Source: Albidovulum denitrificans (GTDB lineage Bacteria > Pseudomonadota > Alphaproteobacteria > Rhodobacterales > Rhodobacteraceae). Taken from it: a stretch of 64,000 nt of DNA. The stretch covers positions 620,001 to 684,000 of the forward strand of contig NZ_PVEP01000001.1 of the NCBI RefSeq assembly GCF_002973535.1, read 5' to 3'. The notes under the pieces are model-generated. The model was not told where the DNA came from, did not search any database, and worked only from the letters and a program-made list of their open reading frames with translations. Positions 42,138 through 63,563 of the stretch are shown in pieces. Each line of letters opens with the position of its first letter. The first letter of the stretch is position 1. The position numbers were made by a program, and so were the translations under genes.

Positions 42138-42150
42138 GTCAGGGTCCCCC

Positions 42151-43938: not shown

Positions 43939-44013
43939 TATCGCGCCTCTCTTCTGAGGCCGCGCAAAAGGGCGTCGGTCGGGCGAAAGGCCCGGCGGAA
44001 TGGTGGATACTCC

Positions 44014-44047: not shown

Positions 44048-44192
44048 GAAGGCTAGCGCCGCCCCCGAAGGCCGGTCTTTGCGCGGGGCGCACGGTTTTT
44101 TGACGCTGAGCGCATTCCGCCGACCTGACCGTAAACGCAGCTTTACAGGGCATACGCCCCTCTTCCACACTAAGCGAAGGGAGGACGCGGCG

Positions 44193-45697: not shown

Positions 45698-45719
45698 GGT
45701 CTTTCTCCTCTCTACGGGG

Positions 45720-46691: not shown

Positions 46692-47556
46692 GGAGAACCT
46701 CCATCAGCTTGGCATTGGTGCCGTCGATGTCCTTGTTGAAATCGCTCAGGCTGAAGCTGCATTCGCGCACGACCGGCTCGAAGGCATTACGCTCAACCTC
46801 CTCCAGCGCGGCGTCGTAGTCGTCGCGGCTGATCGGCTTCCATTTCACGATGTCGCCCGGCTTGAAGAAACACATCTCGTCGCGCAGGTAGCTGACCTTC
46901 TGTTCCGGGTCGTAGATCGGCATCGGCGTGATGCCGAACATCTGGTAGCCACCCGCGCCGCGCACCGAATAGATGCAGGAAAAGCAGCCGCCATAGCCCA
47001 CGGTCAGTTTCGGCGTATCGGTCCGGGGCCGCAGGTATTTCGGCACCTCGATCTGCCGCTGCCGTTCCACCATCTGGTAAAGGAACGGCAGACCGGCGAC
47101 GAAGCCGACCATGGAGACGAACCACGGGCTGCCCGAATGGGCGGCAATGAACTCGTCAACGGATTTGAAGCCGTTGATCTCGGCCGCATATTCGATATCG
47201 GTCGCGTTCGGGTCCTGATGGCGTTCGCGAAAGCGCATCAGCGTTTCGTGCGTCCAGGGGTCCTGATAGAAGACCGGGATTTCCATGATCCGGGTCCTGA
47301 GGCTGGCATCGGATTTCGACGCCGCGCCCTCCATCGACTGAAGCTCCCGCAGAAGATCGCCGGGCTTGATCCGGTCGGGGTCGAACTTGATCTGGAAGCT
47401 GGCATTGGCCGGACATATCTCGGTCACGCCGGAAATCCCGGCCTCCCGCACGGCATTGGTCATCGAGAGGCTGGTGAAGAACGCCTCAAGCGACATGGAT
47501 TCGGAAACCTCGGCGAAGATGTGTTCGTCACCGCCAAAGCTGAAACGGATCGACAT
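46681..47556 (-). CDS. pxpB: 5-oxoprolinase/carboxyltransferase subunit PxpB (KipI family)
   Basis: This 291-residue protein has the KipI/CT_C_D fold (GFVAGLPFLYQM, RTDTPKLTVGYGG, AGGYQMFGITPMPIYDPEQ). It is somewhat longer than Bacillus KipI (about 240), with extra residues before the conserved C-terminal part. The ATG at 47556 (MSIRFSFGGDE) follows GGAAGGGAGGG. It lies between the biotin carboxylase gene and pxpC, and pairs with PxpC. Confidence 0.92.
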   Translation of the reverse strand: MSIRFSFGGDEHIFAEVSESMSLEAFFTSLSMTNAVREAGISGVTEICPANASFQIKFDPDRIKPGDLLRELQSMEGAASKSDASLRTRIMEIPVFYQDPWTHETLMRFRERHQDPNATDIEYAAEINGFKSVDEFIAAHSGSPWFVSMVGFVAGLPFLYQMVERQRQIEVPKYLRPRTDTPKLTVGYGGCFSCIYSVRGAGGYQMFGITPMPIYDPEQKVSYLRDEMCFFKPGDIVKWKPISRDDYDAALEEVERNAFEPVVRECSFSLSDFNKDIDGTNAKLMEVLHGR

Positions 47557-47569
47557 GGCCCCTCCCTTC

Positions 47570-48946: not shown

Positions 48947-49179
48947 CAGTCGAGATCCGCCAGAACCGCGCCCGCCATCACGGGTTCCTCATTGTCGACC
49001 GCGAAGCGGACATTGGCCCCCGCGACCTCGGCCTTCACCTCGTGAAAGCTTTTCATCACCTCGATCAGCCCGATCACGTCGCCCACCGCCACGCTGTCGC
49101 CATCGGCCTTGTAGGGCGGCTTGTCGGGCGAGGAGGCGCGGTAGAAAGTGCCGGGCAAGGGGGACAATATCTGCGTCAT
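48946..49179 (-). CDS. Biotin carboxyl carrier protein (short, biotinyl-lipoyl domain)
   Basis: This 77-residue protein consists of just one biotinyl domain. The modification site is Lys43 in GLIEVMKSFHEVKA, a variant of the usual AMKM/VMKM. The opening LSPLPGTFYRASSPDKPPY resembles AccB C-terminal domains. It starts three bases after the pxpA stop and shares one base with the biotin carboxylase start. It would shuttle carboxybiotin from the AccC-like enzyme to PxpBC. Confidence 0.93.
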   Translation of the reverse strand: MTQILSPLPGTFYRASSPDKPPYKADGDSVAVGDVIGLIEVMKSFHEVKAEVAGANVRFAVDNEEPVMAGAVLADLD

Positions 49180-49182
49180 GGG

Positions 49183-49917
49183 TCAGGTCCTCTTCTCGGA
49201 GTAAGGGGCGATGGCGGTGCGCACCGCGCGGGCGATGTCGAGCGCGTTGGGCGTGTCGGAATGGATGCAGATCGATTCGCAGCGCGTCGGGAAATGGGAC
49301 CCGTCGGTCGCCGTCCCCTCACCCTGCTCGATGGCGCGCAGAACGCGGGCCGCCATCTCGTCGGGGTCCTTCGCGTCATGCTCGCGCGTCACGATCAGCG
49401 TACCATCGGGGCGATAATCCAGATCGCCGTAATATTCGGCGATCATCCTGTGGCCGCGCGCGGGATAAACGGTTTCATGCAGTGTGCCGGTCATGCCCAG
49501 AAGCGGCACGGTGTAGACATCGGCCGCGTCGCAGACCGCCTGCGCGATCTCCTCCAGCCGCCCGGCCATCCCGAAGAGGGAGCCATGCGGCTTGATATGG
49601 TTCAGCTCCATCCCCTCGGCCTTCAGGAACCCCGACAGCGCGCCGATCTGGTAAATCAGGCAATTCGCCATCTCCTCCCGGCCCATCTTCATTTCACGTC
49701 GGCCAAAGCCCTGAAGATCGGGCAGCGAGGGATGCGCGCCGACTTTCACGCCATGTTTCTTGGCCAGTTGCACCGTCGCGCGCATGTGGTTGAAATCGGA
49801 CGCATGAAACCCGCAGGCGACATTGGCGATGTCGATGAAGGGCATCATCCCCGCATCGTCGCCCATCCGGTAAAGGCCGAAGCTTTCGCCCATGTCGCAA
49901 TTGATGGTGATCGCCAT
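49183..49917 (-). CDS. pxpA: 5-oxoprolinase subunit PxpA (LamB/YcsF family)
   Basis: This 244-residue protein has the YcsF/LamB hallmark INCDMGESFG, then NVACGFHASDF, VGAHPSLPDLQGFGRREM and QIGALSGFLKAEGM. In 5-oxoprolinase PxpABC, this subunit is thought to hydrolyse the activated lactam. It is the first gene of the operon, divergent from a LysR gene. The start MAITINCDMGES is conserved. The natural substrate may be 5-oxoproline or another lactam or amide. Confidence 0.95.
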   Translation of the reverse strand: MAITINCDMGESFGLYRMGDDAGMMPFIDIANVACGFHASDFNHMRATVQLAKKHGVKVGAHPSLPDLQGFGRREMKMGREEMANCLIYQIGALSGFLKAEGMELNHIKPHGSLFGMAGRLEEIAQAVCDAADVYTVPLLGMTGTLHETVYPARGHRMIAEYYGDLDYRPDGTLIVTREHDAKDPDEMAARVLRAIEQGEGTATDGSHFPTRCESICIHSDTPNALDIARAVRTAIAPYSEKRT

Positions 49918-50027: not shown

Positions 50028-50933
50028 ATGTCGCTGACGCTGAAACAGGTGCGCTATTTTCTTGCCGCCGCCGAGACCGGGCAGATCAGCCATGCGGCGA
50101 TGGAGATGAACATCTCCCAATCCGCCGTGACGGCGGCGATTCAGCAGCTTGAGGCGCAGCTGGGCGTCACGCTTCTGGAACGCACCACGACCGGCGTCCG
50201 CCCGACGATCGAGGGCGCGCGGTTCCTGAACCATGCGCGCAACATCACCGCCGCGGTCGAGGACGCGGTGCGCAGCCCCTTGGGCGAAAGCGGCGGCGTG
50301 ACCGGGACGCTGCGGGTGGCGACGACCTATACCGTCGCGGGCTATTTCATGTCGCGCCATTACACCCGCTTTCGCCGCGCCTATCCCGACATCACCATCG
50401 AAATGATGGAACTGCCGCGCGGCGAGATCGAGAAGGGTATCGTCAACGGCTGGATCGACATCGCCGTCATGCTGGTCTCGAACCTCGCCAACCACGCCGA
50501 GATCGACCACGAACCGCTGTTCCGCTCGCACCGCAGGCTCTGGCTGCCCGCCGATCACCGGCTTCTGGGCGCCGACCGCGTCACGCTGGCCGAGGTCGCG
50601 GCGGAACCCTACGTCATGCTGACGGTGGATGAGGCACGGGTGACCGCCGGGCGCTATTGGGACAAGGCCGGGCTTGAGCCGAACGTGGTTTTCGCGACGA
50701 GTTCGGTCGAGGCGGTCCGATCCCTCGTCGCGGCCGGGATGGGGGTCACGATCCTGTCGGACATGGTCTATCGGCCCTGGTCGCTGGAAGGTCAGCGGAT
50801 CGAATTGCGCACGCTGAATGATGAGGTGCCGAGCATGGATGTGGGCCTTGCCTGGTCCAACGCGCGCCCCCTGTCGCCCGCGACGGGCGTCTTCCGCGCC
50901 TTCATGTCGGTGGCGTTGGGCGGCGGCGGGTAA
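50028..50933 (+). CDS. LysR-family transcriptional regulator
   Basis: This 301-residue LysR protein has an N-terminal HTH (YFLAAAETGQISHAAMEMNI, SQSAVTAAIQQLEAQLG) and an effector domain of normal length with AGMGVTILSDMVYRPWSLEG. It is divergent from pxpA and so probably regulates the biotin-dependent lactam operon. The TAA stop codon lies in the first three bases of a 93-bp repeat element; before insertion the codon was probably TAG (see the element). Confidence 0.94.
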   Translation: MSLTLKQVRYFLAAAETGQISHAAMEMNISQSAVTAAIQQLEAQLGVTLLERTTTGVRPTIEGARFLNHARNITAAVEDAVRSPLGESGGVTGTLRVATTYTVAGYFMSRHYTRFRRAYPDITIEMMELPRGEIEKGIVNGWIDIAVMLVSNLANHAEIDHEPLFRSHRRLWLPADHRLLGADRVTLAEVAAEPYVMLTVDEARVTAGRYWDKAGLEPNVVFATSSVEAVRSLVAAGMGVTILSDMVYRPWSLEGQRIELRTLNDEVPSMDVGLAWSNARPLSPATGVFRAFMSVALGGGG

Positions 50934-51023
50934 AGCGTTTCGGGTTTACGTTGAGAACGTAAGTATCGGAATTCGAACGAAATAAGTTCGAATTCTGATT
51001 CAGTGTAAACCCGAAATGCTATA
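50931..51023. repeat. 93-bp MITE-like palindromic element, copy 2
   Basis: The 24-base terminal inverted repeats (50931-50954 and 51000-51023) match at 20 positions. An inner perfect 10-bp stem GAATTCGAAC (50969-50978)/GTTCGAATTC (50986-50995) encloses a 7-base loop. The left TA is the start of the LysR stop codon, and the base after the right TA is G. No coding capacity is present. Confidence 0.9.
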
Positions 51024-51030
51024 GGCTGCG

Positions 51031-51954
51031 TCAGGCGAAAAGCGCGCGGCACGCCGCCAGCTTTTCCGGCAGCGCCCGCGCGCCCGGCGATTGCAGCACG
51101 GCGGCGGCGGTGGCCTGACCGCGCGCGATGGCCTCGCCCAGCCCGGCGCCGGTCAGCCGGGCGGCGAGGTAACCCGCGTTGAAGGCATCCCCCGCGCCGG
51201 TCGTGTCGCGGATGCCCGTCACCGGCGGCGTGGGGTGGCTTTCGCAGGTCCCGTCGAGGCAGGCCGTGACCGCGCCCGCGCCGTTCTTGACCACGATCTC
51301 CCCGATCCTTGCCGCGCGATAGCGCGCCACGGTCGCGGCGGGGTCGGCATCGCCCCAGGTCGCGGCCTCATCATCGAAGCTGGGCAGGATCACGTCGGTG
51401 AGCGACAGGAAGCCCGGCAGCACCTCGCGGACCTCGTCGGGCGAGGACCAGAGACGGGGGCGGATATTCGGGTCGAAGGAAATCCGCGCGCCCTGCCCGC
51501 GCGCCCTGGCCAGCGCGTCACGCAGCCGGGCGCGCGCATCGGGCGCAAGGATCGCCAGCGTGATGCCCGACAGATGGATCAGCCCGGCACCCTCGAAGGC
51601 GGCGCCAAGCGCTGCCGGATCGTCGGCCAGCCTCCGCGCGGCCGAGGTGCTGCGCCAGTAGTGAAAGCGCCGCTCCACCCCGTCGAGTTCGATCAGGTAA
51701 AGCCCCATCGTGCGGGCCGCGTCCCGCCCGACGCCCGCGATGGACAGCCCGTCCGCCTGAAGCCCCGCGACAAAGCTGTCCGACAGGCTGTCCTGCCCGA
51801 CACGGGTCGCAAAGCCGACCTCGGCGCGGCCGCCCAGAAGCTGCGCCATGTGCCAGGCGGTGTTGTAGGTGTCGCCCGCAAAACCCCGGCGAAAGAGGCC
51901 CTCGCCCACCGGCGCAAGCTCCACCATCGCCTCGCCAATGCTGACGACCTTCAC
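51031..51954 (-). CDS. PfkB-family sugar kinase (2-keto-3-deoxygluconate kinase-like)
   Basis: This 307-residue ribokinase-fold kinase has the N-terminal signature SIGEAMVELAPVGEGLFRRGFAGDTYN, split over two conserved blocks, as in KdgK. The C-terminal PfkB motif DTTGAGDAFNAGYLAARL contains the catalytic Asp. It is the last gene of the ten-gene LacI-controlled operon and overlaps the FAD-oxidoreductase gene by four bases. Phosphorylation of a 2-keto-3-deoxy sugar acid is plausible. Confidence 0.9.
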   Translation of the reverse strand: MKVVSIGEAMVELAPVGEGLFRRGFAGDTYNTAWHMAQLLGGRAEVGFATRVGQDSLSDSFVAGLQADGLSIAGVGRDAARTMGLYLIELDGVERRFHYWRSTSAARRLADDPAALGAAFEGAGLIHLSGITLAILAPDARARLRDALARARGQGARISFDPNIRPRLWSSPDEVREVLPGFLSLTDVILPSFDDEAATWGDADPAATVARYRAARIGEIVVKNGAGAVTACLDGTCESHPTPPVTGIRDTTGAGDAFNAGYLAARLTGAGLGEAIARGQATAAAVLQSPGARALPEKLAACRALFA

Positions 51955-54020
51955 GCGCCGTTCCCCCGATAGATCGCGCCGGTCAGCCAGGCGGGCCAGT
52001 CGCGTTCGAAGAAAGCCCGGCGGTGTTCGTCAAGGGCGCGGTTGGGGCGCGTCGTGACGGCGAAGGCGTCGCCCGACAGGCTTAAGGTGATCTGTTCATC
52101 CCGGTCGCCCGCGCCTTCCTCGCGGAAGCGATAGGCGTCAAGCGGGCCGCTTCGCCCCTCCGGCACCCGGCTGCCCGCCGGATCGCAGATCGCCCGCGCC
52201 CCCCGACTGCCGCCGCCATGGGAGATGTAGAAATCCAGCGCCGTCAGAACCGCCTCGGACACCAGCGCCATCTGCTGCCATTGCACCACCCGGCCCAGTT
52301 CGGCGGCACGGCCCGGCGCGATGCCCTGCCCGCGTATCTCGGCAGTCAAGGCCCGCGCCTCGGTCAGCGCCCCGGTCACGCCGGATGGGGTGCAGAAAAG
52401 ACCCGCCCGCTCGCTCATCCTCGCCTGAACCTCGCGCTTCACATCGTTGATCTTCAAAGCGCTTTTCGGGTTCGCGATGGCGCCGATCCGGGCCACGGCG
52501 CGGGCCAGTTCCGCCACCGGCACCGCCCCGTCAGGCGGCTGCGCACGGCCCGTCGCGGCGATATGCTCCGCCACCCTTGTGCCAAAGACCTGCCCCGCGT
52601 TCAGGGCGGAACCGCCGGGGCGGGTGACGCCATGGGTGCCGGCCGCCTCCCCCACCGCATAAATGCCGGGGCGGGAGGAGCGGCCCCAGATATCGACCGC
52701 GATCCCGCCGTTCATGTGCTGGTTGTTGACGGCGAATTCCAGCGGCTCGGCGGCGATGTCGATCTTGTAGCGGCGGTAAAGCTCGATCGAGAGCGGGTTC
52801 ATGTGCCGCAGCCGGTCGATGGGCCTGTCCTGCACCGCGCCCGCCGTGGTCAGATAGTCGGACACATCGGCATCCAGCCGCGACAGGCTGAAGGGCTGAT
52901 CCCCCGGCACCGGAAGCGGGTTGCGGTTGAAATCCATGAAGACGCGCCGCCCCAGCTCCCCCTCGCGGTAGATCGCCAGATCGACAAGGCTCGACCCGAA
53001 ATCGAGCATCCGGCTGGCATGGAAGGGCCATTGATAGCCCTTGCGGAAGATGTTCGACGCCAGTTCCCGCGTCGTGCGGTAATAGGCGGCCAGGAATGGG
53101 TGTTCCGTCCCCTCCTCATCGACCGAATAGATATGCGGCATGGCCTGCACATAGGTCCCCGACAGGTTCCACGGGAACCCCTCGCGCCTTGTGCCGATGC
53201 CGAACTGGCTTTCGGTCAGGTTGACGAGGTCCAGCCCCGCCTCAAGCGCAAGGCCAAGCGCGCCGAAGCAGCCGTTGGGGAAGACGCTGTCACGGTAAAG
53301 CTCCCCTGGACCACCGGCGGCGAGCACGATCACCGGCGCACGGAAAAGCGCCAGCCCCCAGGGGTTCGCCTCCGCCCGGTCCTTCGCGCGCACGGTCAGG
53401 ATGCCGTCGGGGCCGTCCGTCCCCTCAATGATCCGCACGCCCGTGGTCTGGTTGAAGATCGCCACGCCCAGCCGGATCGCCTCTTCCGCCAGAACCTTGA
53501 CCATCAGGCGCGAGGTGCGCGGCCCGCAGCTTGTGGCGCGGCCGGTTTCGTCATGGTCGGTCTGGTAGCGCAGCGTCCCGCCATAGGCATCCTGCGGCAG
53601 CGGCAGGCCGAGATATTGCAGCGACGCCATGGCGCGGCCCGACCCGACCGCCTCAATATAGGCGGTATCCTCATCCATCGCGCCGCCCGCGCGGATGGCG
53701 CGGGCCATGGCGCGGTAATTGTCGCCCCGGTCGGCGGTGTTGGCGGTGTGCAGCGTCTGCTTGTCCGAGCCGGAGCAGGCCGAGGTTCCGCCCCAGGCGC
53801 TTTGCGTCAGGACCGCAACGTCGATCCCGCGCCGCGTCATCTCAACCGCCGCGCGCAGGCCCGCCGCGCCGCTGCCAAGGACGATGGCGCCAGAGGTATG
53901 GACGGGGATGCGGTGACCCGCGACCTTGACCGCGCCGCCAGGCGCCGGTTCGGGCGGCAGGCGCGGCATGTCGACATCGGTCAGCGCGTCAAGGATGGAC
54001 TGGTCGATGGGGGCGGGCAT
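51951..54020 (-). CDS. FAD-dependent oxidoreductase, succinate dehydrogenase/fumarate reductase flavoprotein family
   Basis: This large flavoprotein of 689 residues has an ADP-binding motif near residue 45 (IVLGSGAAGLRAAVEMTRRG) and the late FAD motif GIYAVGEAAGTHGVTRPGGS. It resembles the flavoprotein subunit of fumarate reductase, aspartate oxidase and adenylylsulfate reductase alpha. There is no signal peptide and no partner Fe-S subunit nearby. The substrate is unknown; its place in the operon suggests oxidation or reduction of an intermediate of the local pathway. Confidence 0.87.
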   Translation of the reverse strand: MPAPIDQSILDALTDVDMPRLPPEPAPGGAVKVAGHRIPVHTSGAIVLGSGAAGLRAAVEMTRRGIDVAVLTQSAWGGTSACSGSDKQTLHTANTADRGDNYRAMARAIRAGGAMDEDTAYIEAVGSGRAMASLQYLGLPLPQDAYGGTLRYQTDHDETGRATSCGPRTSRLMVKVLAEEAIRLGVAIFNQTTGVRIIEGTDGPDGILTVRAKDRAEANPWGLALFRAPVIVLAAGGPGELYRDSVFPNGCFGALGLALEAGLDLVNLTESQFGIGTRREGFPWNLSGTYVQAMPHIYSVDEEGTEHPFLAAYYRTTRELASNIFRKGYQWPFHASRMLDFGSSLVDLAIYREGELGRRVFMDFNRNPLPVPGDQPFSLSRLDADVSDYLTTAGAVQDRPIDRLRHMNPLSIELYRRYKIDIAAEPLEFAVNNQHMNGGIAVDIWGRSSRPGIYAVGEAAGTHGVTRPGGSALNAGQVFGTRVAEHIAATGRAQPPDGAVPVAELARAVARIGAIANPKSALKINDVKREVQARMSERAGLFCTPSGVTGALTEARALTAEIRGQGIAPGRAAELGRVVQWQQMALVSEAVLTALDFYISHGGGSRGARAICDPAGSRVPEGRSGPLDAYRFREEGAGDRDEQITLSLSGDAFAVTTRPNRALDEHRRAFFERDWPAWLTGAIYRGNGA

Positions 54021-54024
54021 GGGT

Positions 54025-55050
54025 CTATCTTTCCTTGGACGGCTGGGCGGCGCTGGACGCCCGGATGACCAGATCGACGGCGGGGCGATCTTCGGCCGGG
54101 GGCGTCACGTCGCCCTCGACCCAGGCGAGGATCGTCGCGGCCACCGCCTGCCCGAACCCGGCAATGTCGCAGCGCACGGAACTGAGCGGCGGCCAGCTTT
54201 GGGCGCAATCCTCGATATCGTCGAAGCCGACGATGCGCAGCCCGCCGGGGCCGACCGGGCGGCCGATCTCGGCGCAACCGGAGAGAAGCCCCAGCGCCAC
54301 CTGATCGTTGAAGCAGAGCGCGGCGTCGACCTCGGGATGATCCTCGGCCAGCCGCCGGGCCATGGCGCGCCCCATGCTGCGGCCCGACCGGCCCGGCAGG
54401 ACAAGGGGCGCCAGCCCCGCGCCCGCCAGCGTCGCGCGATAGCCCGCCAGCCGTTCTTCCGTCACCATCCGGCCCTCCAACCCGCCGACAAAGGCGATGT
54501 TTCGCGCGCCTTCCGCGATCAGGTGTTCGGTCGCAAGACGGCTGCCCGCCGGGTAATCGGGCGCGGCAAAGGGAAAGAGGTCGGTGCGCCCGTCCACCCG
54601 ACGCAACACCTGCATCGCGGGCAGCCCGGCGCGGGCGATGGCGTCAAAGCCCGTCTCCCCCCCGCCATAGGCGGGCGAGACGATCAGGGCGGAAACACCA
54701 TGTTCGATCATCGCCCCGATCACCTGCGCCTGAAGCGCGGGGGTTTCGTCCGTATTGGCCAGCACCGCCGCAAAGCCGCGTTCCGACAGCGCCATCTGAA
54801 GCGAGATGGCGAATTCGGTGAAGAAGGGGTTGCGCAGGTCGTTGATGACAAGGCCGATCAGCCCGGCGCCGGAGCTTCTGAGGTTGGCGGCGGCGCGGTT
54901 ATAGACATAGCCCAACGCCTCCATCGCCGCGCGGACGGCGGCGCGGGTTTCCGCGCGCACCGAAGCGCTGTTTTGCAGGACAAGGCTGACGGTCGATTTC
55001 GACACGCCCGCCGCCCGCGCCACGTCGATGATGGTGGGCCTGCGCTCCAT
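54025..55050 (-). CDS. LacI-family transcriptional regulator
   Basis: This 341-residue repressor has the HTH TIIDVARAAGVSKSTVSLVL and a periplasmic-binding-like ligand domain (LIGLVINDLRNPFFTEFA, ALCFNDQVALGLLSGCAEIG). It is embedded in the operon with four-base gaps on both sides. Two GGAACGTTCC palindromes, symmetric about a central CG as LacI sites usually are, lie at the operon promoter at 63410-63443. Autoregulated repression relieved by a sugar-like inducer is the simplest model. Confidence 0.95.
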   Translation of the reverse strand: MERRPTIIDVARAAGVSKSTVSLVLQNSASVRAETRAAVRAAMEALGYVYNRAAANLRSSGAGLIGLVINDLRNPFFTEFAISLQMALSERGFAAVLANTDETPALQAQVIGAMIEHGVSALIVSPAYGGGETGFDAIARAGLPAMQVLRRVDGRTDLFPFAAPDYPAGSRLATEHLIAEGARNIAFVGGLEGRMVTEERLAGYRATLAGAGLAPLVLPGRSGRSMGRAMARRLAEDHPEVDAALCFNDQVALGLLSGCAEIGRPVGPGGLRIVGFDDIEDCAQSWPPLSSVRCDIAGFGQAVAATILAWVEGDVTPPAEDRPAVDLVIRASSAAQPSKER

Positions 55051-55054
55051 TCCC

Positions 55055-55378
55055 CTACCCTTCGCCCGCCGTCACCGGCAGGTCGAAGACAAGGATACCG
55101 TCCAGCCCGCCGACCGCATTGGCCACCAGCCGCGCGCCCAGCTTGCGGTGCGCCGGGTGGTCCTGATAGGCCGCCAGCGCCGCCCAGTCGGTGAAATCGG
55201 CGGTGAAGCCGTGCATATAGCCCCGCTCGATCTTCTCGGGGCTTTCGGAGCGGCCGGAGCGGATGTTCATCAGCCCCGCCACCTTGCCCTCGATGGCGTG
55301 CAACTCATCGAAGATGTCGGCGACCTCAGCCTCGGGCAGGTCGGGGTTGAAACGGATCAGGACGATGTGGCGGATCAT
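55055..55378 (-). CDS. Dabb (stress-responsive A/B barrel) domain protein
   Basis: This 107-residue single-domain protein begins MIRHIVLIRFNPDLPEAEVA and contains GRSESPEKIERGYMHGFTADFTD, matching Dabb proteins, small dimeric ferredoxin-like barrels of mostly unknown function. I use the ATG at 55378 behind GAAGGGGGC instead of the ATG six codons upstream. It lies between the LacI gene and a GMC oxidoreductase gene and might process a pathway intermediate. Confidence 0.88.
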   Translation of the reverse strand: MIRHIVLIRFNPDLPEAEVADIFDELHAIEGKVAGLMNIRSGRSESPEKIERGYMHGFTADFTDWAALAAYQDHPAHRKLGARLVANAVGGLDGILVFDLPVTAGEG

Positions 55379-55388
55379 GGCGCCCCCT

Positions 55389-56972
55389 TCAGGCATGGTC
55401 TTCGCGGATCATGTCGGCGGCCTTTTCGCCGATCATGATCGCCGCGGCGTTGGTGTTCGACGAAATCACCGTCGGCATGATGGAGTTGTCGACGACGCGC
55501 AACCCGTCGATCCCGTTGAAGCGCAGCCGGATGTCCACGACGGCGCCGTCATCCGGCCCCATGCGGCAGGTGCCGACGCAGTGGTGTGAGGTCTTGGAAT
55601 GCTGGCAGATGAAATCGAAATAGTCGGCCTCGGTCCTGACCTCCGGCCCCGGCAGGCGTTCGGCCTTGATGAAGGGTTTCAGGGGCGCCTGCGCAAGGAT
55701 CTGCTGCGTCAGCTTCAGGCCCGCGATGGACATGGCGCGGTCATGCGGGTCTTGCAGGTAATTCGGGTCGATGAGCGGCGCCTTGGCCGGGTCCGCCGAT
55801 TGCAGCCGGACAGAGCCGCGCGAGCGGGGCCGCAGGTGGCAGGAGTTCAGCGTGACGCCCCCCATCGGCATCGCCGCCACGCCATGTTCGATCCCGGTGC
55901 CAAGGCCAAGGTGGAACTGAAGGTCGGGGGAACGGGCATCGGGGTCGGCATACCAGAAGCCGCCGGTTTCAAAAAGCGAAGAGGCAACCGGCCCCTTGCG
56001 CGTCAGCAGGTATTGCAGCCCGGCAAGCGCGGCCCAGTGCGGTTTGGCGTAGCGGTCATAGCTGTAGGGGCCAGAGAGTTCGCAGATGCAATAAAGGTCA
56101 AGGTGGTCCTGTAGGTTCGCGCCCACGTTCGGCTGGTCAAGGACCGGGGCGATCCCCAGCGCGCGAAGCTCCTCTGCCGGGCCGATGCCGGACAGTTGCA
56201 AGAGGCGGGGGGAACCGATGGCGCCCGAGGACAGGATCACCTCTGTCCCCGCCGCGATGCGGCTGCCATCCATCATCTCGACCCCCGCCGCCCGGCCGCC
56301 TTCGACCAGCAGCCGCCGGATCGGCGCGCGGGTGCGCACGGTCAGGTTCGCCCGGCCCCGGTTCGGCGCCAGATAGGCCATCGCGGCGGACGACCGGCGC
56401 GCGTTGCGCTGCGTCAGTTGGTAATAGCAGACGCCGTCCTGCGCCTCTCCGTTGATATCCATGTTGCGCGGGATGCCAAGCGCTGCCGCCGCCTCGAAAT
56501 ACGCCTCGCAGATCGGCAGTGGCGCGATGGGCTGGCTGACGCCAAGGGGTCCGCCCTTGCCGTGAAAGCGGTTCTCGAACGTGTCGTTATCCTCGGCCTT
56601 GCGGAAATAGGGCAGCACGTCGTCATAGCCCCAGCCGGTGCAGCCCATCTGGCGCCAGTCGTCGTAATCCTGCGCATTGCCGCGCGTGTAGATCTGCGCG
56701 TTGATGGCCGAACCGCCGCCCAGCACCTTCGCCTGCGTATAGCGGAAGACCTTGCCCTTCATGTGCCGCTGCGGAGCGGTGTCCCAGCCCCAGGACCCGA
56801 TGCCCTTGGTCATTTTCGCGAAACCGGCGGGCAGGTGGTAAAGCGGGTTGCCGTCGCCGCCCCCGGCCTCGAGCAGCAGGACCTTGACGGCCGGATCCTC
56901 GCTCAGCCTTGCGGCGACGACCGACCCGGCCGACCCGGCGCCGATGACGATGAAATCGTAACCCTTTTCCAT
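55389..56972 (-). CDS. GMC-family oxidoreductase (choline dehydrogenase-like)
   Basis: This 527-residue FAD enzyme has the N-terminal motif FIVIGAGSAGSVVAARLSED, GMC signature 1 near KVLGGGSAINAQIYTRGN, and the C-terminal catalytic region HHCVGTCRMGPDDGAVVD. It is close to BetA-type alcohol dehydrogenases and oxidises a primary alcohol to an aldehyde. The ATG at 56972 has a GGGGGA site; an ATG at 57011 overlapping the upstream stop is an alternative start. The aldehyde dehydrogenase of this operon could take the product further. Confidence 0.92.
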   Translation of the reverse strand: MEKGYDFIVIGAGSAGSVVAARLSEDPAVKVLLLEAGGGDGNPLYHLPAGFAKMTKGIGSWGWDTAPQRHMKGKVFRYTQAKVLGGGSAINAQIYTRGNAQDYDDWRQMGCTGWGYDDVLPYFRKAEDNDTFENRFHGKGGPLGVSQPIAPLPICEAYFEAAAALGIPRNMDINGEAQDGVCYYQLTQRNARRSSAAMAYLAPNRGRANLTVRTRAPIRRLLVEGGRAAGVEMMDGSRIAAGTEVILSSGAIGSPRLLQLSGIGPAEELRALGIAPVLDQPNVGANLQDHLDLYCICELSGPYSYDRYAKPHWAALAGLQYLLTRKGPVASSLFETGGFWYADPDARSPDLQFHLGLGTGIEHGVAAMPMGGVTLNSCHLRPRSRGSVRLQSADPAKAPLIDPNYLQDPHDRAMSIAGLKLTQQILAQAPLKPFIKAERLPGPEVRTEADYFDFICQHSKTSHHCVGTCRMGPDDGAVVDIRLRFNGIDGLRVVDNSIMPTVISSNTNAAAIMIGEKAADMIREDHA

Positions 56973-57007
56973 GCCGTCCCCCTGACCTGCCTCTCCCGTC
57001 CCTCTGT

Positions 57008-58507
57008 TCATCCCGAAAGCTCCGTCCTGCGGATATGGTCCGCCGCGCGCAGCGACAGGGCCGCGATGGTCAGGGCCGGGTTGACCGCCGCCGAGGTCGG
57101 CAGGACCGAGGCGTCGGAGATGTAAAGGTTCGGGTGATCGTGGCTGCGGCAGAATGTGTCCACCACGCTTGCGCCCGCGTCCGCCCCCATCCGCGCCGTC
57201 CCGCATTGATGCGACGGCGTGCGCCGGTCGAAGGGCTGCGACATCACCACAGGATAGCCCGCCCTGCGCAGCGCCTGTTTCAGCTTTGCCACCAGCGCCT
57301 CATGCGCGGCCCAGTTCGACCGCTTCCAGTCGAGCCGTATCTGCCCGTCCTTCAGCGTGACGCGGCTTTCGGGGTTCGGCAGATCCTCGGACATTGCGTA
57401 AAGATCGACCGACCGCGCGGCGATCCAGCGCGCGGCCCAACCCGGCAGCGGGGATGAGGCCGCAAGGATCGGGCCGGAGATCTTGCCAAGAAGCTGAATA
57501 TTGCCCAGCGGCGCGCCACCCGGCCCGCCGGCCTCATAGAAGTCGTTGATCTGGAATGTTTTCTGATAGACGGAACGGTTCCGCCGCAACGGATGCAGCG
57601 CAAGGACGGCAGAGCAGTTGTGGTTCATGAAATTGCGCCCGACCTGACCGGAGCGGTTGGCCAGCCCGCCCGGCCGCGCCGCGTCGGCCGAGGCGAGAAG
57701 CAGCGCCGCGCTTTGCACCGCGCCTGCGGCAAGGACGACAAGCGGCGCATGCAGGGTCTCGCGCCCTTCCACGCCCTCCACCTCGACCCCGGTGATACGG
57801 CCCGAGGCATCGGCGATCAGCCGCGTGGCCCTTGCCCCGGTGCGCAGCGTCACGTTCGGATGGGACAGCGCCACCGTCAGGCCGACCGTCTCGGCATCCA
57901 TCTTGCCGCCGCGCGTGTTGGGGAAGGCGTCCCATGGGGTGCGCCCCTTGGCCAGCCAGCGGTCGATATCGACGCCAAGCGGCAGCGAGGACGGGTGCAG
58001 CCCGACCGCCGCCAGCCGCCGCCTGAGATCGGCAATGGCGGGTTCGTCCGGCACCGGCGGATGGGGGTAGCGGCCGGAATGGGGCGGTTCGGTCGGGTCC
58101 TCGCCGATCTGGCCGCGCACCTGATAAAACGTCTCGGCCTGCTGATAGAACGGCTCAAGCTCGGCGTAGCTGATGGGCCAGCCGGGCGTGGTGCCGCCCA
58201 TGTGGCGGACCGGCGTGAAATCGGCCTGCCGGTAGCGGGTGAAAACCGCGCCGAAGAATTTCGAATTGCCGCCCGCGTAGTAGTAATTGCCCGGATTGAA
58301 GGGCCGGTCCTGCCCGTCCAGCCACTCCTCCTTCGGGCGGAAATGGCCACGCGCAAAGATCGCGAGGTCATCGCGCGCCTCGGGGCAATCGGCCAGCCGC
58401 CCGCCGCGTTCCAGGATCAGGATGCGCCGCCCGGTGGGCGCCAGCGCCGCCGCCAGCGTCGCGCCCCCCATCCCCGATCCGATGACGATGATGTCGACCC
58501 CGGCCAT
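57008..58507 (-). CDS. GMC-family oxidoreductase (second, distinct subfamily)
   Basis: This 499-residue FAD enzyme begins DIIVIGSGMGGATLAAALAP and has GNYYYAGGNSKFFGAVFTRY and the C-terminal part SHQCGTARMGADAGASVVD. It is more like the sugar/steroid GMC dehydrogenases with GMC_oxred_C than like BetA, and differs clearly from its neighbour at 55389. It may oxidise a ring hydroxyl of a sugar or cyclitol. No signal peptide and no gluconate-dehydrogenase small subunit are seen. Confidence 0.9.
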   Translation of the reverse strand: MAGVDIIVIGSGMGGATLAAALAPTGRRILILERGGRLADCPEARDDLAIFARGHFRPKEEWLDGQDRPFNPGNYYYAGGNSKFFGAVFTRYRQADFTPVRHMGGTTPGWPISYAELEPFYQQAETFYQVRGQIGEDPTEPPHSGRYPHPPVPDEPAIADLRRRLAAVGLHPSSLPLGVDIDRWLAKGRTPWDAFPNTRGGKMDAETVGLTVALSHPNVTLRTGARATRLIADASGRITGVEVEGVEGRETLHAPLVVLAAGAVQSAALLLASADAARPGGLANRSGQVGRNFMNHNCSAVLALHPLRRNRSVYQKTFQINDFYEAGGPGGAPLGNIQLLGKISGPILAASSPLPGWAARWIAARSVDLYAMSEDLPNPESRVTLKDGQIRLDWKRSNWAAHEALVAKLKQALRRAGYPVVMSQPFDRRTPSHQCGTARMGADAGASVVDTFCRSHDHPNLYISDASVLPTSAAVNPALTIAALSLRAADHIRRTELSG

Positions 58508-58513
58508 GGCCCG

Positions 58514-60049
58514 CTACCCACCCGTTCCGGTCCGCACCCAGGGGGCGCGTGTGCGCCCGATGCGCATGACGACCGATTTGACCTCAAGGAACTCGTCGAA
58601 CCCGTATTGGCCGATCTCCCGCCCCTGCCCGGATTGCTTCATCCCGCCAAAGGCGATCTCGGGGAAGCCGTCCATCCAGGTGTTGGTCCAGACCGTCCCG
58701 GCGGCGGCGCGGCGCGCGAAATCAAGGCAGGTATGGACGTTCTCGCTCCACACCCCCGCCGACAGACCATAGCTTGCGTCATTGGTCAGCGCGATGGCCT
58801 CTTCGGCGTCGCGGAAGGTCAGCACGGTCAGGACCGGGCCAAAGACCTCTTCCCGCGCGATGGCCATGTCGGGCGTGACGCCACGGACGATGGTGGGCTG
58901 ATAGAACTGATGCCCGAGGCCCGGCACGCTCAGCGCGCCGCCGCCAAGGCAGACCTCCGCCCCCGCCGCGACCGCGTCCCGCACATAGCCGTCGATCTTG
59001 GCCTGATGCGCGGCGGTCACGATGGCGCCGACCTGCGTGTCGGGGTTCAGCGGGTTGCCAAACGCCACCTGCCGCGACAGCGCCACGACGCGGGCGGTGA
59101 AGGCGTCGGCGATATCCTCATGCACGATGATCCGGCTTGAGGAATTGCAGCACTGGCCGGTGTTGAAATAGACGCCGAAGGTCACCGCGTCGGCGGCGCT
59201 GTCCAGATCGGCGTCGGGGAAGATCACCTGCGGGTTCTTGCCGCCAAGCTCAAGCGCCACCTTCTTCAGCGTCCCGGCCGCAAGCGCGGTGATTTTCTTG
59301 CCCACAGCGGTAGAGCCGGTGAAGGTCACCATGTCCACATCGTCATGCGTCACCATCCGGCTGCCGACCGGGTCGCCATAGCCCAGGACGATGTTGCAGA
59401 CGCCGGGCGGCAGCCCCGCCTGATCCAGCAACTCCGCCAGAAGCGCGGTGGTCGAAGGCGTCATTTCCGACGGTTTCACGACGCAGGTGCAGCCCGCGCC
59501 AAGCGCGAAGGGCAGTTTCTGACCGAGAATCCAGAACGGAAAGTTCCACGGCGTGATGATGGAAACGACCCCGATCGGCTCCTTCAGCACCACGCCCAGC
59601 ATGTCGGGGCCAAGCGTGTTGTGGCTGTCGCCATGGCTGGTGCGGGCGAGCGCGGCGGCATAGCGCCAAAGGTCGGCAGCGCCCCCCACCTCACCCCGCG
59701 CCTGGGTGATGGGCTTGCCGGTTTCCAGCGTCTCGATCAGGGCGAAGCGCTCGACATTCTCCTCGATCAGATCGGCGACGCGCAGAAGGACCGTTGCCCG
59801 ATCCTTGCCGGAGATCCGGCTCCAGCGGCCATCGTCGAAGGCATGACGGGCCGCGGCGATGGCGGCGTCGGCCTCTGCCACGCCGCCCATCGCCGCGCGG
59901 CTGACGGTGACGCCATGGGACGGCGCGATGCGTTCGCAGACCGCGCCATCGGCACTGTCACGCCATGCGCCGTCGATATAGTGGCGCAGGGCCAGCGGTT
60001 CGGCGGGAAGGGCCAGATCGGCCTTGGTGATGATGGTCAGGTCGGTCAT
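58514..60049 (-). CDS. NAD(P)-dependent aldehyde dehydrogenase
   Basis: This 511-residue aldehyde dehydrogenase has general base Glu267 (ALELGGKNPQ) and nucleophile Cys301 in FNTGQCCNSSSRI. The Rossmann cofactor motif TFTGSTAVGKK and ITPWNFPFWILGQKLPFAL are also present. It converts an aldehyde to its acid. It lies six bases before the GMC gene and three bases after the enoyl-CoA hydratase gene, so it is likely to act on the product of a GMC alcohol dehydrogenase. Confidence 0.95.
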   Translation of the reverse strand: MTDLTIITKADLALPAEPLALRHYIDGAWRDSADGAVCERIAPSHGVTVSRAAMGGVAEADAAIAAARHAFDDGRWSRISGKDRATVLLRVADLIEENVERFALIETLETGKPITQARGEVGGAADLWRYAAALARTSHGDSHNTLGPDMLGVVLKEPIGVVSIITPWNFPFWILGQKLPFALGAGCTCVVKPSEMTPSTTALLAELLDQAGLPPGVCNIVLGYGDPVGSRMVTHDDVDMVTFTGSTAVGKKITALAAGTLKKVALELGGKNPQVIFPDADLDSAADAVTFGVYFNTGQCCNSSSRIIVHEDIADAFTARVVALSRQVAFGNPLNPDTQVGAIVTAAHQAKIDGYVRDAVAAGAEVCLGGGALSVPGLGHQFYQPTIVRGVTPDMAIAREEVFGPVLTVLTFRDAEEAIALTNDASYGLSAGVWSENVHTCLDFARRAAAGTVWTNTWMDGFPEIAFGGMKQSGQGREIGQYGFDEFLEVKSVVMRIGRTRAPWVRTGTGG

Positions 60050-60052
60050 GGC

Positions 60053-60829
60053 TCAGGTCCCCGGAAAGTCCGCTTTGCGCTTTTCGCGAAAGGCGGCGAC
60101 GCCCTCGGCACGGTCGTCGCTGGCGGCGATGGCGGCCGATCCCAGCGCCTCGACCATGGCGCCGCGATCCTCGGCCACGGCGGCGTGGATCATGGTCTTG
60201 GTGATCTCCACCGCGCGGGGGGAAAGCGTCGCGGCCTCTTCGGCGATGGCGGTCGCGGTGGCCGACACGTCCTCGGCCACCTCGACGGCAAAGCCCAGCC
60301 CCACCGCCCGCTCCGCCCCGATCCGGCGACCGAAAAGCGCCATTTCCTTCACCGCCGCTTCCGGCAGAAGCCGGCAAAGGCGCTGCGTCCCCGACCAGCC
60401 CGGCACGATCCCCACGCGCGCCTCGGGCAGGGCCAGCGTCGCGCGGGGCGCCATGACGCGGATATCGGCGCAGGCGGCAAGCTCAAGCCCGCCGCCGAAG
60501 GCATGGCCGTTCAGCGCCGCGATGACAGGTTTCGACAGCCGCGCCAGCCGGTCGAAGATCCGATGCCCATCGCGCACCCAGTGGCGGGCGAACTCGGCGG
60601 GCGACAGATCGCCCCAGGCGTTGATGTCGGCCCCGGTGCAAAAGGCGCGATCCCCCTCGCCCGTCAGGATGACCGCGCGGATGGCAGGGTCCTGTTCGAT
60701 GGCGATCAGATGGGTTTCCAGATCGCGCAGCATCGGGATGGTAAAGGCGTTCATCTTGGCCGGGTTTTCCAGCCTCAGCCGGGCGATCCCGCCGGTGATC
60801 TCAAGCGAAACGCGGCTCACTGGTTCCAC
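60053..60829 (-). CDS. Enoyl-CoA hydratase/isomerase family protein
   Basis: This 258-residue crotonase-fold protein carries both glutamates needed for hydratase activity, Glu116 (GGGLELAACADI) and Glu136 (LPEARVGIVPGWSGTQRL), and the oxyanion-hole segment CTGADIN. It would hydrate an enoyl-CoA or catalyse a related lyase step. It overlaps the CoA-transferase gene by 13 bases, so a CoA ester made by that enzyme is the likely substrate. Confidence 0.93.
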   Translation of the reverse strand: MEPVSRVSLEITGGIARLRLENPAKMNAFTIPMLRDLETHLIAIEQDPAIRAVILTGEGDRAFCTGADINAWGDLSPAEFARHWVRDGHRIFDRLARLSKPVIAALNGHAFGGGLELAACADIRVMAPRATLALPEARVGIVPGWSGTQRLCRLLPEAAVKEMALFGRRIGAERAVGLGFAVEVAEDVSATATAIAEEAATLSPRAVEITKTMIHAAVAEDRGAMVEALGSAAIAASDDRAEGVAAFREKRKADFPGT

Positions 60830-62388
60830 TCCATTGGCGCTTTGGACAGAAGCGACAGCGGCATGGTTTCGGCGTTCCCGGCCACCCGCACCCGCCCGTG
60901 CGAGGCGGCGACGATGTCGCGCTCCGGCTCGATGCCCGGCATGATCTCCGTCGCGATCAGCCCGCCCTCGTCCAGCCGCATCACGCAGCGTTCGGTGACA
61001 TAAAGCACCTCCTGCCCCTGTTCGCGCGCCCGGCGGCCGGAGAAGGTGACATGCTCAACCGCCCCGACCATCTTGGTGAACTTGCCGGGCTTTTTCACGC
61101 GGATACCGGTTTCCGACAACTCAATCTCTGCCCCGGCCTCGAACCAGCCGGAAAAGACGATCTTCTTCCCGTGCGAAGTGATATCCACGAACCCGCCGCA
61201 TCCGGCGGTCAGGAAGGGCTTCTTGCCAAGCTTGGAGACATTGACGTTACCCTCCACATCGACCTCAAGGAACGACAGGAAGGCGACGTCGAACCCCGCG
61301 CCTTGAAAGAAGATGAACTGCTGCGGCGAGGGCACGAAGGCATCCGCGTTCGACGCGCAGCCAAAGGCGAAATCGGTCAGCGGCATGCCCCCCACCGCGC
61401 CCTGTTCAATGGCCCATGTGACCGCCTCGGGATGCCCGGCCTCAAGCAAAATCCGCGGCACCTGGGCCGAGATGCCGAAGCCGAGATTGGCGGTCATGCC
61501 AGAGCGAAGCTCCATCGCCGCGCGCCGGGCGATCACCTTTTCCACCCCGTAATCGGGGGTGCGGAAGCTGGACCAGGGGCGCATGATCTGGCCCGAGATG
61601 GCCGGGTCATAGGGGGTTTCGCAGGTCTGTTTCTGGTCGGGGTCGATGACGACAAGGTCGACCAGATGCCCCGGCACCCGCACGTCATGCGGACGCAGCG
61701 AGCCGCGCGCGGTCACGCGGGAGACCTGCGCGATCACCAGCCCGCCATGGTTGCGCACGCAGATCGCCTGTTCCAGACCGCCAAGATAGGCGCCCTCATG
61801 CTCATAGGTCAGGTTGCCGAATTCATCCGCCGTCGTCGCCCGCAGGATGCAGACATTGGGGATGATATTGGGGAAATGCAGCCAGGTTTCGCCGTCGAAC
61901 TCCACCCGCCGCACGATGGGCTCCGCCGCCGCGCGGGCATTCATCGCGCAGCCCTCGCGGATCGGATCGGCGAAAGTGTCGAACCCGGTCCGGGTCAGGA
62001 CACCGGGACGGCGGGCGGCCGCCTCACGGTGCATGTCGAACATGATGCCGGAGGGGACGTTATAGGCCGGGATCCGGTCCTCGACGATCATCTTCCAGAT
62101 CTCGGGCATCGGCAGGTTGGAGGAGCCCGACGGGTAGGACCCCGCCAGCACCTTGGCCAAGAGCCCGTCCTTCGCGATGTGGTCGATGCCCTTCACCCCG
62201 TACATGTCCCCCGCCGCAATCGGGTGCAGCGTGGTCAGGCCGCGGGGATGGCCCTCGGCCTCGAACCGCTCTCCGATGGCCTTCAGCACCAGATCCGGGC
62301 AACCGAGAGAGGAGGAGGAGGAGACGGTGACAACGGCCCCGTCCGCGATACATTCCGCCGCCGCTGCGGCGCTGACGACCTTGCTCAT
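60817..62388 (-). CDS. Acyl-CoA:acetate/3-ketoacid CoA-transferase, fused alpha-beta (YdiF-like)
   Basis: This 523-residue family I CoA-transferase has both subunits in one chain, as in E. coli YdiF. The catalytic glutamate is Glu328 in WAIEQGAVGGMPL. The N-terminal half has GAVVTVSSSSSLGCPDLVLKA and HIAKDGLLAKVLAGSY. It transfers CoA from an acyl-CoA donor to a free acid, plausibly the acid formed by the aldehyde dehydrogenase in the same operon. It overlaps the Gfo/Idh gene by four bases. Confidence 0.94.
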   Translation of the reverse strand: MSKVVSAAAAAECIADGAVVTVSSSSSLGCPDLVLKAIGERFEAEGHPRGLTTLHPIAAGDMYGVKGIDHIAKDGLLAKVLAGSYPSGSSNLPMPEIWKMIVEDRIPAYNVPSGIMFDMHREAAARRPGVLTRTGFDTFADPIREGCAMNARAAAEPIVRRVEFDGETWLHFPNIIPNVCILRATTADEFGNLTYEHEGAYLGGLEQAICVRNHGGLVIAQVSRVTARGSLRPHDVRVPGHLVDLVVIDPDQKQTCETPYDPAISGQIMRPWSSFRTPDYGVEKVIARRAAMELRSGMTANLGFGISAQVPRILLEAGHPEAVTWAIEQGAVGGMPLTDFAFGCASNADAFVPSPQQFIFFQGAGFDVAFLSFLEVDVEGNVNVSKLGKKPFLTAGCGGFVDITSHGKKIVFSGWFEAGAEIELSETGIRVKKPGKFTKMVGAVEHVTFSGRRAREQGQEVLYVTERCVMRLDEGGLIATEIMPGIEPERDIVAASHGRVRVAGNAETMPLSLLSKAPMEWNQ

Positions 62389-63389
62389 GCGCTTTCCCCG
62401 TAATTGACGATCTGCCGGGTCCCGCTTTGCGCCGCCGCGCGCACCGCGAAGGCAACTGCAAGCGACCTTACACCATCCCGGCCATCGGCGGCAGGCCGCC
62501 CCTGCCCGCGCACGGCAGCGCCGAAATCGGCAAGGCCCTGCGTGTAAAGGTCATGGGTCGGGAACGGGATCGCCTCGCGCCCGGCGGCACTGACCAGCTC
62601 CACCTCCCCCACCGGGTTCTGGGTCATGACACCCTGCGCGAAGATCGACCCTTCGGTGCCATGCACCTCAAACCCGGACCCCGCGAAGGGATGGGTGAAG
62701 CTCTCATGGCTCATCACCATCGCGCCCGACGGCATGGACCAGACCGACATCGCGCTGTCCTCGACCCCCTGCCCCATGCCCGAGGCCGCCATCTGCGCGA
62801 CGACCGTTTCCGGCTCCTCGCCCAGGATGAAGCGCGCCACGTCGGCGTCATGGACGGTGATGTCGGGAATGACCCCGCCGCCCGCCGCCGCATCGTTGAT
62901 GCGCCAGCCTTGCAGATGCGGCGGCAGGTGGACGGCGTGGAAGAGGCGCATTGACAGGACCCGCCCGATGCGGCCGCCCGCGATCAGGTCGCGCACGGCC
63001 CGGTGGCTGCCCGAACAGCGCAGGTGGTGGTTGGTGGCAAAGACCAGCCCCGCCGCCTCGGCCGCCGCGACCATCCGGGCTGCTTCGTCCACGGTCATCG
63101 CCAGCGGCTTTTCGCACAGCACATGCTTGCCCGCCGCGATCGCCGCCATCGCCTGCGGAAAGTGCTTTTCGTTGGTGGTGGAGATATAGACGGCATCCAC
63201 CGCCGGATCGGACAGCGCCGCGTCAAGGTCGGTGCCATGGTTCACGATCCCATGCTCTGCGGCATAGGCGGCGGCGCGCCCGGCATCGCCAGAGATCAGC
63301 CAGACGACCTCATCGCCGCTCTGGGCGCGGATGGCGCGGATCACATATTGCGCGGCAATCGTACTCGCCCCGATCAGAGCCCATTTCAT
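62385..63389 (-). CDS. Gfo/Idh/MocA-family oxidoreductase
   Basis: This NAD(P)-dependent dehydrogenase of 334 residues has an N-terminal Rossmann fold (ALIGASTIAAQYVIRAIR), the family motif CEKPLAMTVDEA with the catalytic Lys, and a C-terminal sandwich with VIPDITVHDADVARFILGE, whose Asp/His side is catalytic in relatives. Relatives oxidise sugars, inositols or their derivatives. It is the first gene of the operon. The ATG at 63389 follows GGGGAGGGCAG and lies downstream of the twin operators; the longer open frame would include the operators. Confidence 0.94.
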   Translation of the reverse strand: MKWALIGASTIAAQYVIRAIRAQSGDEVVWLISGDAGRAAAYAAEHGIVNHGTDLDAALSDPAVDAVYISTTNEKHFPQAMAAIAAGKHVLCEKPLAMTVDEAARMVAAAEAAGLVFATNHHLRCSGSHRAVRDLIAGGRIGRVLSMRLFHAVHLPPHLQGWRINDAAAGGGVIPDITVHDADVARFILGEEPETVVAQMAASGMGQGVEDSAMSVWSMPSGAMVMSHESFTHPFAGSGFEVHGTEGSIFAQGVMTQNPVGEVELVSAAGREAIPFPTHDLYTQGLADFGAAVRGQGRPAADGRDGVRSLAVAFAVRAAAQSGTRQIVNYGESA

Positions 63390-63409
63390 GCTGCCCTCCC
63401 CCATGTATC

Positions 63410-63454
63410 TGGAACGTTCCAATTCATCTATCGGAACGTTCCAACCCATGTCAA
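63410..63454 (-). promoter_or_regulatory. Promoter with twin LacI-type operators for the ten-gene operon
   Basis: On the minus strand, TTGACA (63454-63449) and GATAGA (63432-63427, 16-base spacer) form a promoter. GGAACGTTCC palindromes lie at 63433-63442, between -35 and -10, and at 63411-63420, just downstream of -10. Their centres are 22 bases apart, two helical turns. With one flanking base on each side, the 63410-63421 site reads TGGAACGTTCCA. The geometry is that of repression by a LacI-type protein. Confidence 0.75.
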
Positions 63455-63470: not shown

Positions 63471-63563
63471 TAAAGCGTTTCGGGTTTTCGTTGAGAGAGC
63501 ACGTATCAGAATCCGAACGAAACAAGTTCGAATTCTGATTCAACGTAAACCCGAAATGCTATA
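63471..63563. repeat. 93-bp MITE-like palindromic element, copy 3
   Basis: It has the same length, TA-flanked ends and inner palindrome as copies 1 and 2, with slightly more base changes. The right end contributes the last seven codons and the stop of the histidine phosphatase gene. The left end lies 16 bases upstream of the -35 box of the ten-gene operon. Confidence 0.87.

Follow-up and report, generated by a model that had tools for sequence, protein, structure and literature searches.

A ten-gene LacI-controlled operon with an anhydrofructose reductase homologue in Albidovulum denitrificans: a candidate for aerobic catabolism of 1,5-anhydro sugars

1,5-Anhydro-D-glucitol (AG) ranks among the main polyols in human blood and serves as a marker of diabetes; the poison that causes two inherited neutropenias is formed from it. 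According to a 2025 review, anaerobes open the rings of AG and 1,5-anhydro-D-mannitol (AM) with glycyl radical enzymes, and no analogous oxidative AG pathway has been described; 1,5-anhydro-D-fructose (AF) is reduced to AM, which is then hydroxylated at C1 to mannose by an enzyme still unidentified (PMC12441222). Here, we analysed a 64,000-nucleotide stretch of the 4.1 Mb genome of Albidovulum denitrificans (hereafter the window; positions 620,001 to 684,000 of contig NZ_PVEP01000001.1, or G000:C1:620001-684000), in which ten genes form an operon headed by a homologue of 1,5-anhydro-D-fructose reductase (AFR). We regard 1,5-anhydro sugars as the likely substrate class. With a confidence somewhat above even, we propose that the operon serves the aerobic, LacI-controlled catabolism of 1,5-anhydrohexitols, namely AF, AM and probably AG. 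AFR has so far been the one known enzyme of such a pathway, and the operon would supply candidate genes for the remaining steps.

The AFR locus SMc04390-SMc04401 of Sinorhizobium meliloti and Sinorhizobium morelense, in which SMc04400 is reportedly AFR itself (Kuhn et al., 2006), has in common with our system the AFR homologue, the LacI regulator, GMC genes and a sugar-type solute-binding gene. SMc04390, SMc04391 and SMc04392 are annotated as sorbose dehydrogenase, short-chain dehydrogenase and putative dehydrogenase, respectively (PMC12542648), SMc04401 is a regulator (PMC4560400), and the solute-binding gene smc04396 is reported to be induced by dextrin (PMC4960864). AF is derived from alpha-1,4-glucans (PMC2974679), the class of polymer to which dextrin belongs, and the induction thus fits AF as a substrate. 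The S. meliloti locus entered the analysis through these papers, and operators were compared in related loci rather than in S. meliloti itself; the gene order of the Rhizobiaceae relatives agrees with that of the S. meliloti locus tags. Judged against Rhizobiaceae and Rhodobacteraceae loci, the window operon has the S. meliloti-type core of AFR, CoA-transferase, crotonase, aldehyde dehydrogenase (ALDH), two GMC flavoenzymes and LacI. It differs in its ending: the S. meliloti locus has an SDR gene between the GMC genes, whereas the window has a fumarate reductase (Frd)-like flavoprotein and a PfkB kinase, and its operon contains no transporter gene.

The route from AF through AM to mannose (Kuhn, Yu and Giffhorn, 2006) shares the AFR step with this operon, but its second step is an oxygenation at C1, whereas the window operon suggests oxidation at C6 and CoA chemistry. 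The anaerobic pathway of Ma et al. (2024) acts on the same substrates as proposed here and, as summarised in PMC12441222, uses phosphorylation by the phosphotransferase system (PTS) and an oxygen-sensitive radical ring opening. The ten genes of the operon encode neither a glycyl radical enzyme nor a PTS; no search for them was made elsewhere in the genome. The alginate pathway, leading from DEH via 2-keto-3-deoxygluconate (KDG) to KDPG, likewise has a manno-configured delta-4 uronate-type intermediate, a KDG kinase and a KDPG aldolase. In contrast, the anhydro ring considered here has no anomeric carbon and no spontaneous opening, and CoA activation is proposed instead.

The AFR homologue and its operon

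The first gene of the operon encodes a Gfo/Idh/MocA-family protein that matched the solved structures of the AFRs of S. morelense (2glx, E=1e-106) and S. meliloti (4koa, E=8e-103), with the next family at 1e-28. It is 56% identical to the S. morelense enzyme over 323 aligned residues and retains the motifs CEKPLA and DITVHDAD; K94, the catalytic Lys in EKP, and the Asp/His pair D176 and H180 in DITVHD are aligned and identical. Judging from these alignments, the protein is a homologue of AFR, the NADPH-dependent reductase converting AF to AM, and this homology ties the operon to the anhydrofructose catabolism of Rhizobiaceae and to the SMc04390-SMc04401 locus. AFR is rare at class level (3 of 289 genomes); it was found in 25 of 298 genomes of a family-level Rhodobacteraceae sample and also in many Rhizobiaceae genomes. 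An earlier reading of the window, made from the sequence only, did not recognise the gene combination as a known pathway. The set is in fact recognisable through AFR, while the absence of a description stands: our literature search found no paper on this gene cluster or on an anhydrosugar operon.

The ten open reading frames all lie on the minus strand between 51031 and 63389, and the family assignments of their products agree with Pfam and NCBIfam profile matches. In order of transcription they are as follows.

62385-63389, minus strand: AFR homologue, Gfo/Idh/MocA family (matches to 2glx and 4koa)
60817-62388, minus strand: class I CoA-transferase, YdiF-like (PF01144; E. coli YdiF, 2ahu, E=1e-90)
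60053-60829, minus strand: crotonase of the enoyl-CoA hydratase/isomerase superfamily, GTG start (PF00378, 179 bits; 5zai, E=9e-48)
58514-60049, minus strand: NAD(P) aldehyde dehydrogenase, ALDH (PF00171, 548 bits; best NCBIfam match BADH, below its cut-off)
57008-58507, minus strand: GMC1, sugar-type GMC flavoenzyme, candidate 1,5-anhydroglucitol 2-dehydrogenase (PF00732/PF05199)
55389-56972, minus strand: GMC2, choline/alcohol-dehydrogenase-type GMC flavoenzyme, candidate C6-alcohol dehydrogenase (PRK02106, 549 bits)
55055-55396, minus strand: Dabb-domain protein, candidate isomerase or ring-opening helper (PF07876, 67 bits)
54025-55050, minus strand: LacI-family repressor (PF00356/PF13377), co-conserved with the operators
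51951-54020, minus strand: FAD flavoprotein of the SdhA/FrdA/NadB superfamily, own subfamily (PF00890; SdhA-like by sequence), here called Frd-like
51031-51954, minus strand: PfkB kinase of the KDG kinase clade, GTG start (matches to 4e69 and KdgK)

The junctions range from -13 to +35 bases. Overlaps occur between AFR and CoA-transferase (4 bases), CoA-transferase and crotonase (13), GMC2 and Dabb (8) and Frd and PfkB (4), and gaps separate crotonase from ALDH (3), ALDH from GMC1 (6), GMC1 from GMC2 (35), Dabb from LacI (4) and LacI from Frd (4). AFR starts at the ATG at 63389, just behind a GGGAGGG stretch. These coordinates agree with the sequence-only reading, which had described ten codirectional genes with anything from overlaps to 35-base gaps, behind one promoter with two operators and acting as a single LacI-controlled unit for an oxidative pathway. 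The promoter region, described below, bears out the promoter and its two operators as well, apart from a weak -10 element, and a single LacI-controlled transcription unit is likewise supported.

Operators, regulon and the two operon endings

Upstream of AFR, the following elements were located.

63449-63454, minus strand: -35-like hexamer TTGACA, from the sequence
63432-63443, minus strand: LacI-type operator 1, TGGAACGTTCCG, kept in orthologous operons
63410-63421, minus strand: LacI-type operator 2, TGGAACGTTCCA, kept in orthologous operons

Both operators are copies of the palindromic consensus TGGAACGTTCC(A/G); a sigma-70 consensus scan did not list the TTGACA site. Allowing one mismatch, the 13-mer operator occurs in the 4.1-Mb genome only as this pair and in one other place. 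With the same tolerance, 27 of 29 Rhodobacteraceae loci carry TGGAACGTTCCA in the 120 bases ahead of AFR, 19 of them at least twice, as compared with a background of 0.03% in shuffled sequences and 2 of 280 upstream regions of other genes in the same loci. In Rhizobiaceae, where LacI is the first gene of the operon, the operator lies ahead of it (13/13 loci). This rarity in the genome, together with the conservation ahead of orthologous operons, indicates that the operator pair is not a chance occurrence. The operator also precedes most of the divergent, split-off units consisting of a second Gfo/Idh gene (Gfo2), Frd and PfkB, as well as the Frd loci L018 and L094; therefore, a single regulon unites LacI, AFR, flavoprotein and kinase. 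LacI would bind both operators, which lie over the promoter spacer and immediately downstream of it, and be released by an anhydro sugar or an early intermediate. No anhydro-sugar LacI regulon is mentioned in Ravcheev 2014, and, if the proposal is right, the operator sequence would allow the regulon to be found in other genomes.

The sequence-only reading had also suggested a genome-neighbourhood search. In that comparison, AFR, CoA-transferase, crotonase, GMC1, GMC2 and LacI, in part with ALDH, travel together across Rhodobacteraceae and Rhizobiaceae, the usual order in the relatives being AFR, CoA-transferase, crotonase, ALDH, CUT1 ABC transporter, GMC1, GMC2, Dabb and LacI. AFR adjoins the CoA-transferase wherever the neighbouring sequence is covered, with two exceptions. 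Two endings can be distinguished. In type A, found in most Rhodobacteraceae relatives, the genes for the flavoprotein and the kinase give way to a DUF993 gene and to an SDR gene lying between GMC1 and GMC2, and same-family genomes with this type lack any Frd-like gene; in type B, to which the window belongs, the Frd-like gene is present, often with PfkB, and the SDR gene is absent. The Dabb gene is kept in both. Among the readable operons of the family-level Rhodobacteraceae sample, which we took as unbiased for this comparison, 15 were of the SDR type and 4 of the Frd type with zero overlap (exact chance 2.6e-4, shared ancestry being ignored). The Rhizobiaceae sample was selected via the flavoprotein and is biased in this respect; in one of its genomes (G589), an SDR-type operon is accompanied by an Frd locus at another site.

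The DUF993 protein (for example, in the AFR operon of L151, 17109-18272, and in similar loci) models as a DHDPS/NAL-type barrel, with a TM of about 0.6-0.85 to DHDPS and a nearest solved structure, 4dnh (SMc04132), at 57%, and its GIK motif contains an invariant Lys. The modelled fold and this Lys would lead one to expect a candidate 2-keto-acid lyase-like protein; our literature search found no paper on DUF993. In a third operon type (L194, L196 and L199), CoA-transferase, crotonase and Dabb genes are accompanied by genes for an acyl-CoA dehydrogenase, SDR, DUF993, aldo-keto reductases, a MaoC protein and a MOFRL-family glycerate-kinase-like protein. This combination gives a hint that DUF993 releases glycerate or glyceraldehyde.

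A candidate route and its alternatives

The second step of the proposed route follows from homology to a characterised enzyme, and we infer the others from the enzyme families encoded. GMC1, whose best matches in the PDB were FAD-glucose dehydrogenase (6a2u, E=1e-35), fructose dehydrogenase and pyranose oxidase, would oxidise AG at C2 to AF, and AFR would reduce AF to AM. GMC2 (8b7s and 9lq0, E below 1e-107) and ALDH would then oxidise C6 of AM to an anhydrohexonic acid, of which the CoA-transferase may form the CoA thioester. In the weakest step, the crotonase would remove the beta-hydroxyl at C4 by elimination, and hydration and opening of the enol ether would give KDG. KDG and the anhydro acid, C6H10O6, are isomers; read from C6, the manno chain gives D-erythro KDG and the gluco chain the L-threo form. 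Since only the manno form yields D-erythro KDG, the route gives a reason for AFR making AM rather than AG. An enzyme is needed for the ring opening because the ring ether has no anomeric carbon, and the candidates for helping it are the Dabb protein and the Frd-like flavoprotein. Neither an acyl-CoA dehydrogenase nor a thiolase, the set of fatty-acid-type beta-oxidation, is encoded among the ten genes according to Pfam.

The kinase at the end of the operon matched 4e69 (E=6e-72) and E. coli KdgK (3lhx, E=3e-54) and retains the YWR substrate motif; KdgK is its best NCBIfam family, at 230 bits and thus under the 400-bit equivalog cut-off. The same genome encodes a KDPG aldolase (C2:351559), with which the kinase could complete the type B ending, while SDR and DUF993 may complete type A. 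Both endings fit a 2-keto-3-deoxy acid. A passage via KDG in particular is put forward tentatively, at somewhat less than even confidence. An oxidative sequence from alcohol through aldehyde and acid to CoA ester, as first read from the sequence, is supported in outline, and the kinase assigned there to a sugar-acid fragment fits the KDG-kinase homology. The hydrated CoA ester of that scheme remains one possible product of the crotonase, but elimination suits the proposed substrate better.

The Frd-like flavoprotein shares its superfamily and FAD_binding_2 domain with the flavoproteins of succinate dehydrogenase and fumarate reductase and with L-aspartate oxidase, but it forms a subfamily of its own. 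Its QFGIG motif has an invariant Gly274 where SdhA has the active-site His (QFHPTG), whereas His435 and Arg467 are invariant, and none of the operon genes encodes the iron-sulphur and membrane subunits that accompany succinate dehydrogenase and fumarate reductase. Its AlphaFold model (pLDDT 63.8) was too poor for a fold search. At least 284 relatives occur in a species-level genome collection, and the 80 loci that we kept are alphaproteobacterial wherever their titles tell. If the proposal is true, the operon supplies candidate genes and predicted intermediates for aerobic AF and AG breakdown, as well as jobs for three orphan families, the Frd-like flavoprotein, DUF993 and the Dabb protein. 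The boldest form of the proposal, in which the operon is the missing aerobic AG route, with inversion of C2 via AF, a cyclic ether opened to KDG with the help of CoA, an undescribed ring-opening step by the Frd-like flavoprotein and a related set sitting unrecognised in most E. coli, appears to us rather unlikely as a whole.

Several observations weigh against catabolism of 1,5-anhydrohexitols and lend weight to other explanations. AFR is the only operon enzyme with an assigned substrate, and neither the Frd-like flavoprotein nor the Dabb protein has a firm step in the pathway. AFR-type enzymes reportedly also reduce 2-keto-aldoses (Kuhn et al., 2006), and the true substrate may thus be another pyranoside or 2-keto sugar, such as glucosone, a 3-keto-glycoside or a plant or algal hexopyranoside, with AFR acting on its 2-keto intermediate. 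GMC1 resembles sugar dehydrogenases of varied regiochemistry, which would suit this explanation. The same operon and operator occur in Rhizobium johnstonii, in L187 and in other loci of the Rhizobium leguminosarum group whose genomes are without AFR, and in such AFR-less clusters Gfo2 adjoins the flavoprotein. However, the conserved genes include neither a lactonase nor a glycosidase, as expected for a substrate without an anomeric centre, and the dextrin induction of the S. meliloti transporter gene fits AF. We consider a different sugar substrate fairly unlikely, yet the best of the alternatives.

The route via mannose is improbable in our view. Here, one of the GMC enzymes or the Frd-like flavoprotein would oxidise C1 of AM, and the CoA genes would serve a second substrate. 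A published claim speaks for it: as summarised in PMC12441222, Kuhn et al. (2006) had S. morelense convert AM to D-mannose by C1 oxygenation, for which no CoA genes are needed. Yet no genes accompany AFR more constantly than those for CoA-transferase and crotonase, the conserved set contains no gene recognised as an oxygenase, and the route needs neither a KDG kinase nor the 2-keto-acid lyase-like DUF993 protein.

Equally improbable is an acid-centred core, in which CoA-transferase, crotonase and Frd-like flavoprotein act on a sugar acid or alicyclic acid and AFR, GMC and ALDH are a later addition. Relatives of these three proteins do occur in alphaproteobacterial loci with TRAP (acid-uptake) transporters or an acyl-CoA dehydrogenase only, without AFR or GMC, and at least 80% of such a cluster is present in 3,103 of 5,426 complete E. 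coli genomes (57%). This arrangement is nevertheless compatible with anhydrohexitol catabolism, the anhydro acid being the shared intermediate, and identity does not exceed 33-39% for the crotonase and CoA-transferase of E. coli, so that the acid may differ. A phenylpropanoid (feruloyl-CoA type) or terpenoid side-chain degradation, as might be read from the trio of ALDH, CoA-transferase and crotonase, was dropped given AFR, the sugar-type transporter and the KDG kinase.

The E. coli cluster lies between ytfB and rplI (L098, 10973-19938, and L101) and encodes an SDR, an IolE-like isomerase, a crotonase, a CoA-transferase and an Frd-like flavoprotein that is 54% identical to that of the window. 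TRAP transporter genes adjoin it in L098. The cluster is uncharacterised, and a literature search for a role in quinate or shikimate metabolism found nothing.

Transport and other features of the window

None of the ten genes encodes a transporter, as had already been noted from the sequence, whereas the operons of relatives contain a CUT1 ABC transporter. The solute-binding protein of these relatives has one homologue in the window's genome, at C1:345655-346908, 337 kb away and unlinked. It is 71-79% identical to the operon-borne copies in G409, G322 and G518, as compared with 35-43% for paralogues elsewhere in other genomes. Its locus (L204, 6458-12816; G000:C1:344.4-350.8 kb) further encodes two permeases, an ATPase, an epimerase-like protein and its own LacI-type regulator. 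A genome of the same genus, G298, has neither AFR nor this solute-binding homologue. Because of the high identity relative to the paralogues and the joint absence from G298, a CUT1 transporter for the pathway is probably present but unlinked, and its absence from the window operon is secondary.

The operon is flanked by two copies of a palindromic repeat of about 93 bp, a feature absent from the sequence-only reading.

63471-63563, minus strand: upstream copy, 83/93 identical to the copy at 50931-51023
50931-51023, minus strand: second copy, just past the last stop codon

Both copies fold into long hairpins. The repeat has at least 41 copies in the genome, including a further one in the window at about 34908-35000, and may be a two-way terminator or a small mobile repeat family. 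Beyond the operon lies a set of 5-oxoprolinase-type genes on the minus strand (37653-49917), encoding hydantoinase A and B, branched-chain-type ABC components, a carboxyltransferase-domain protein and a LamB/YcsF protein, with a LysR regulator beside it at 50028-50933.

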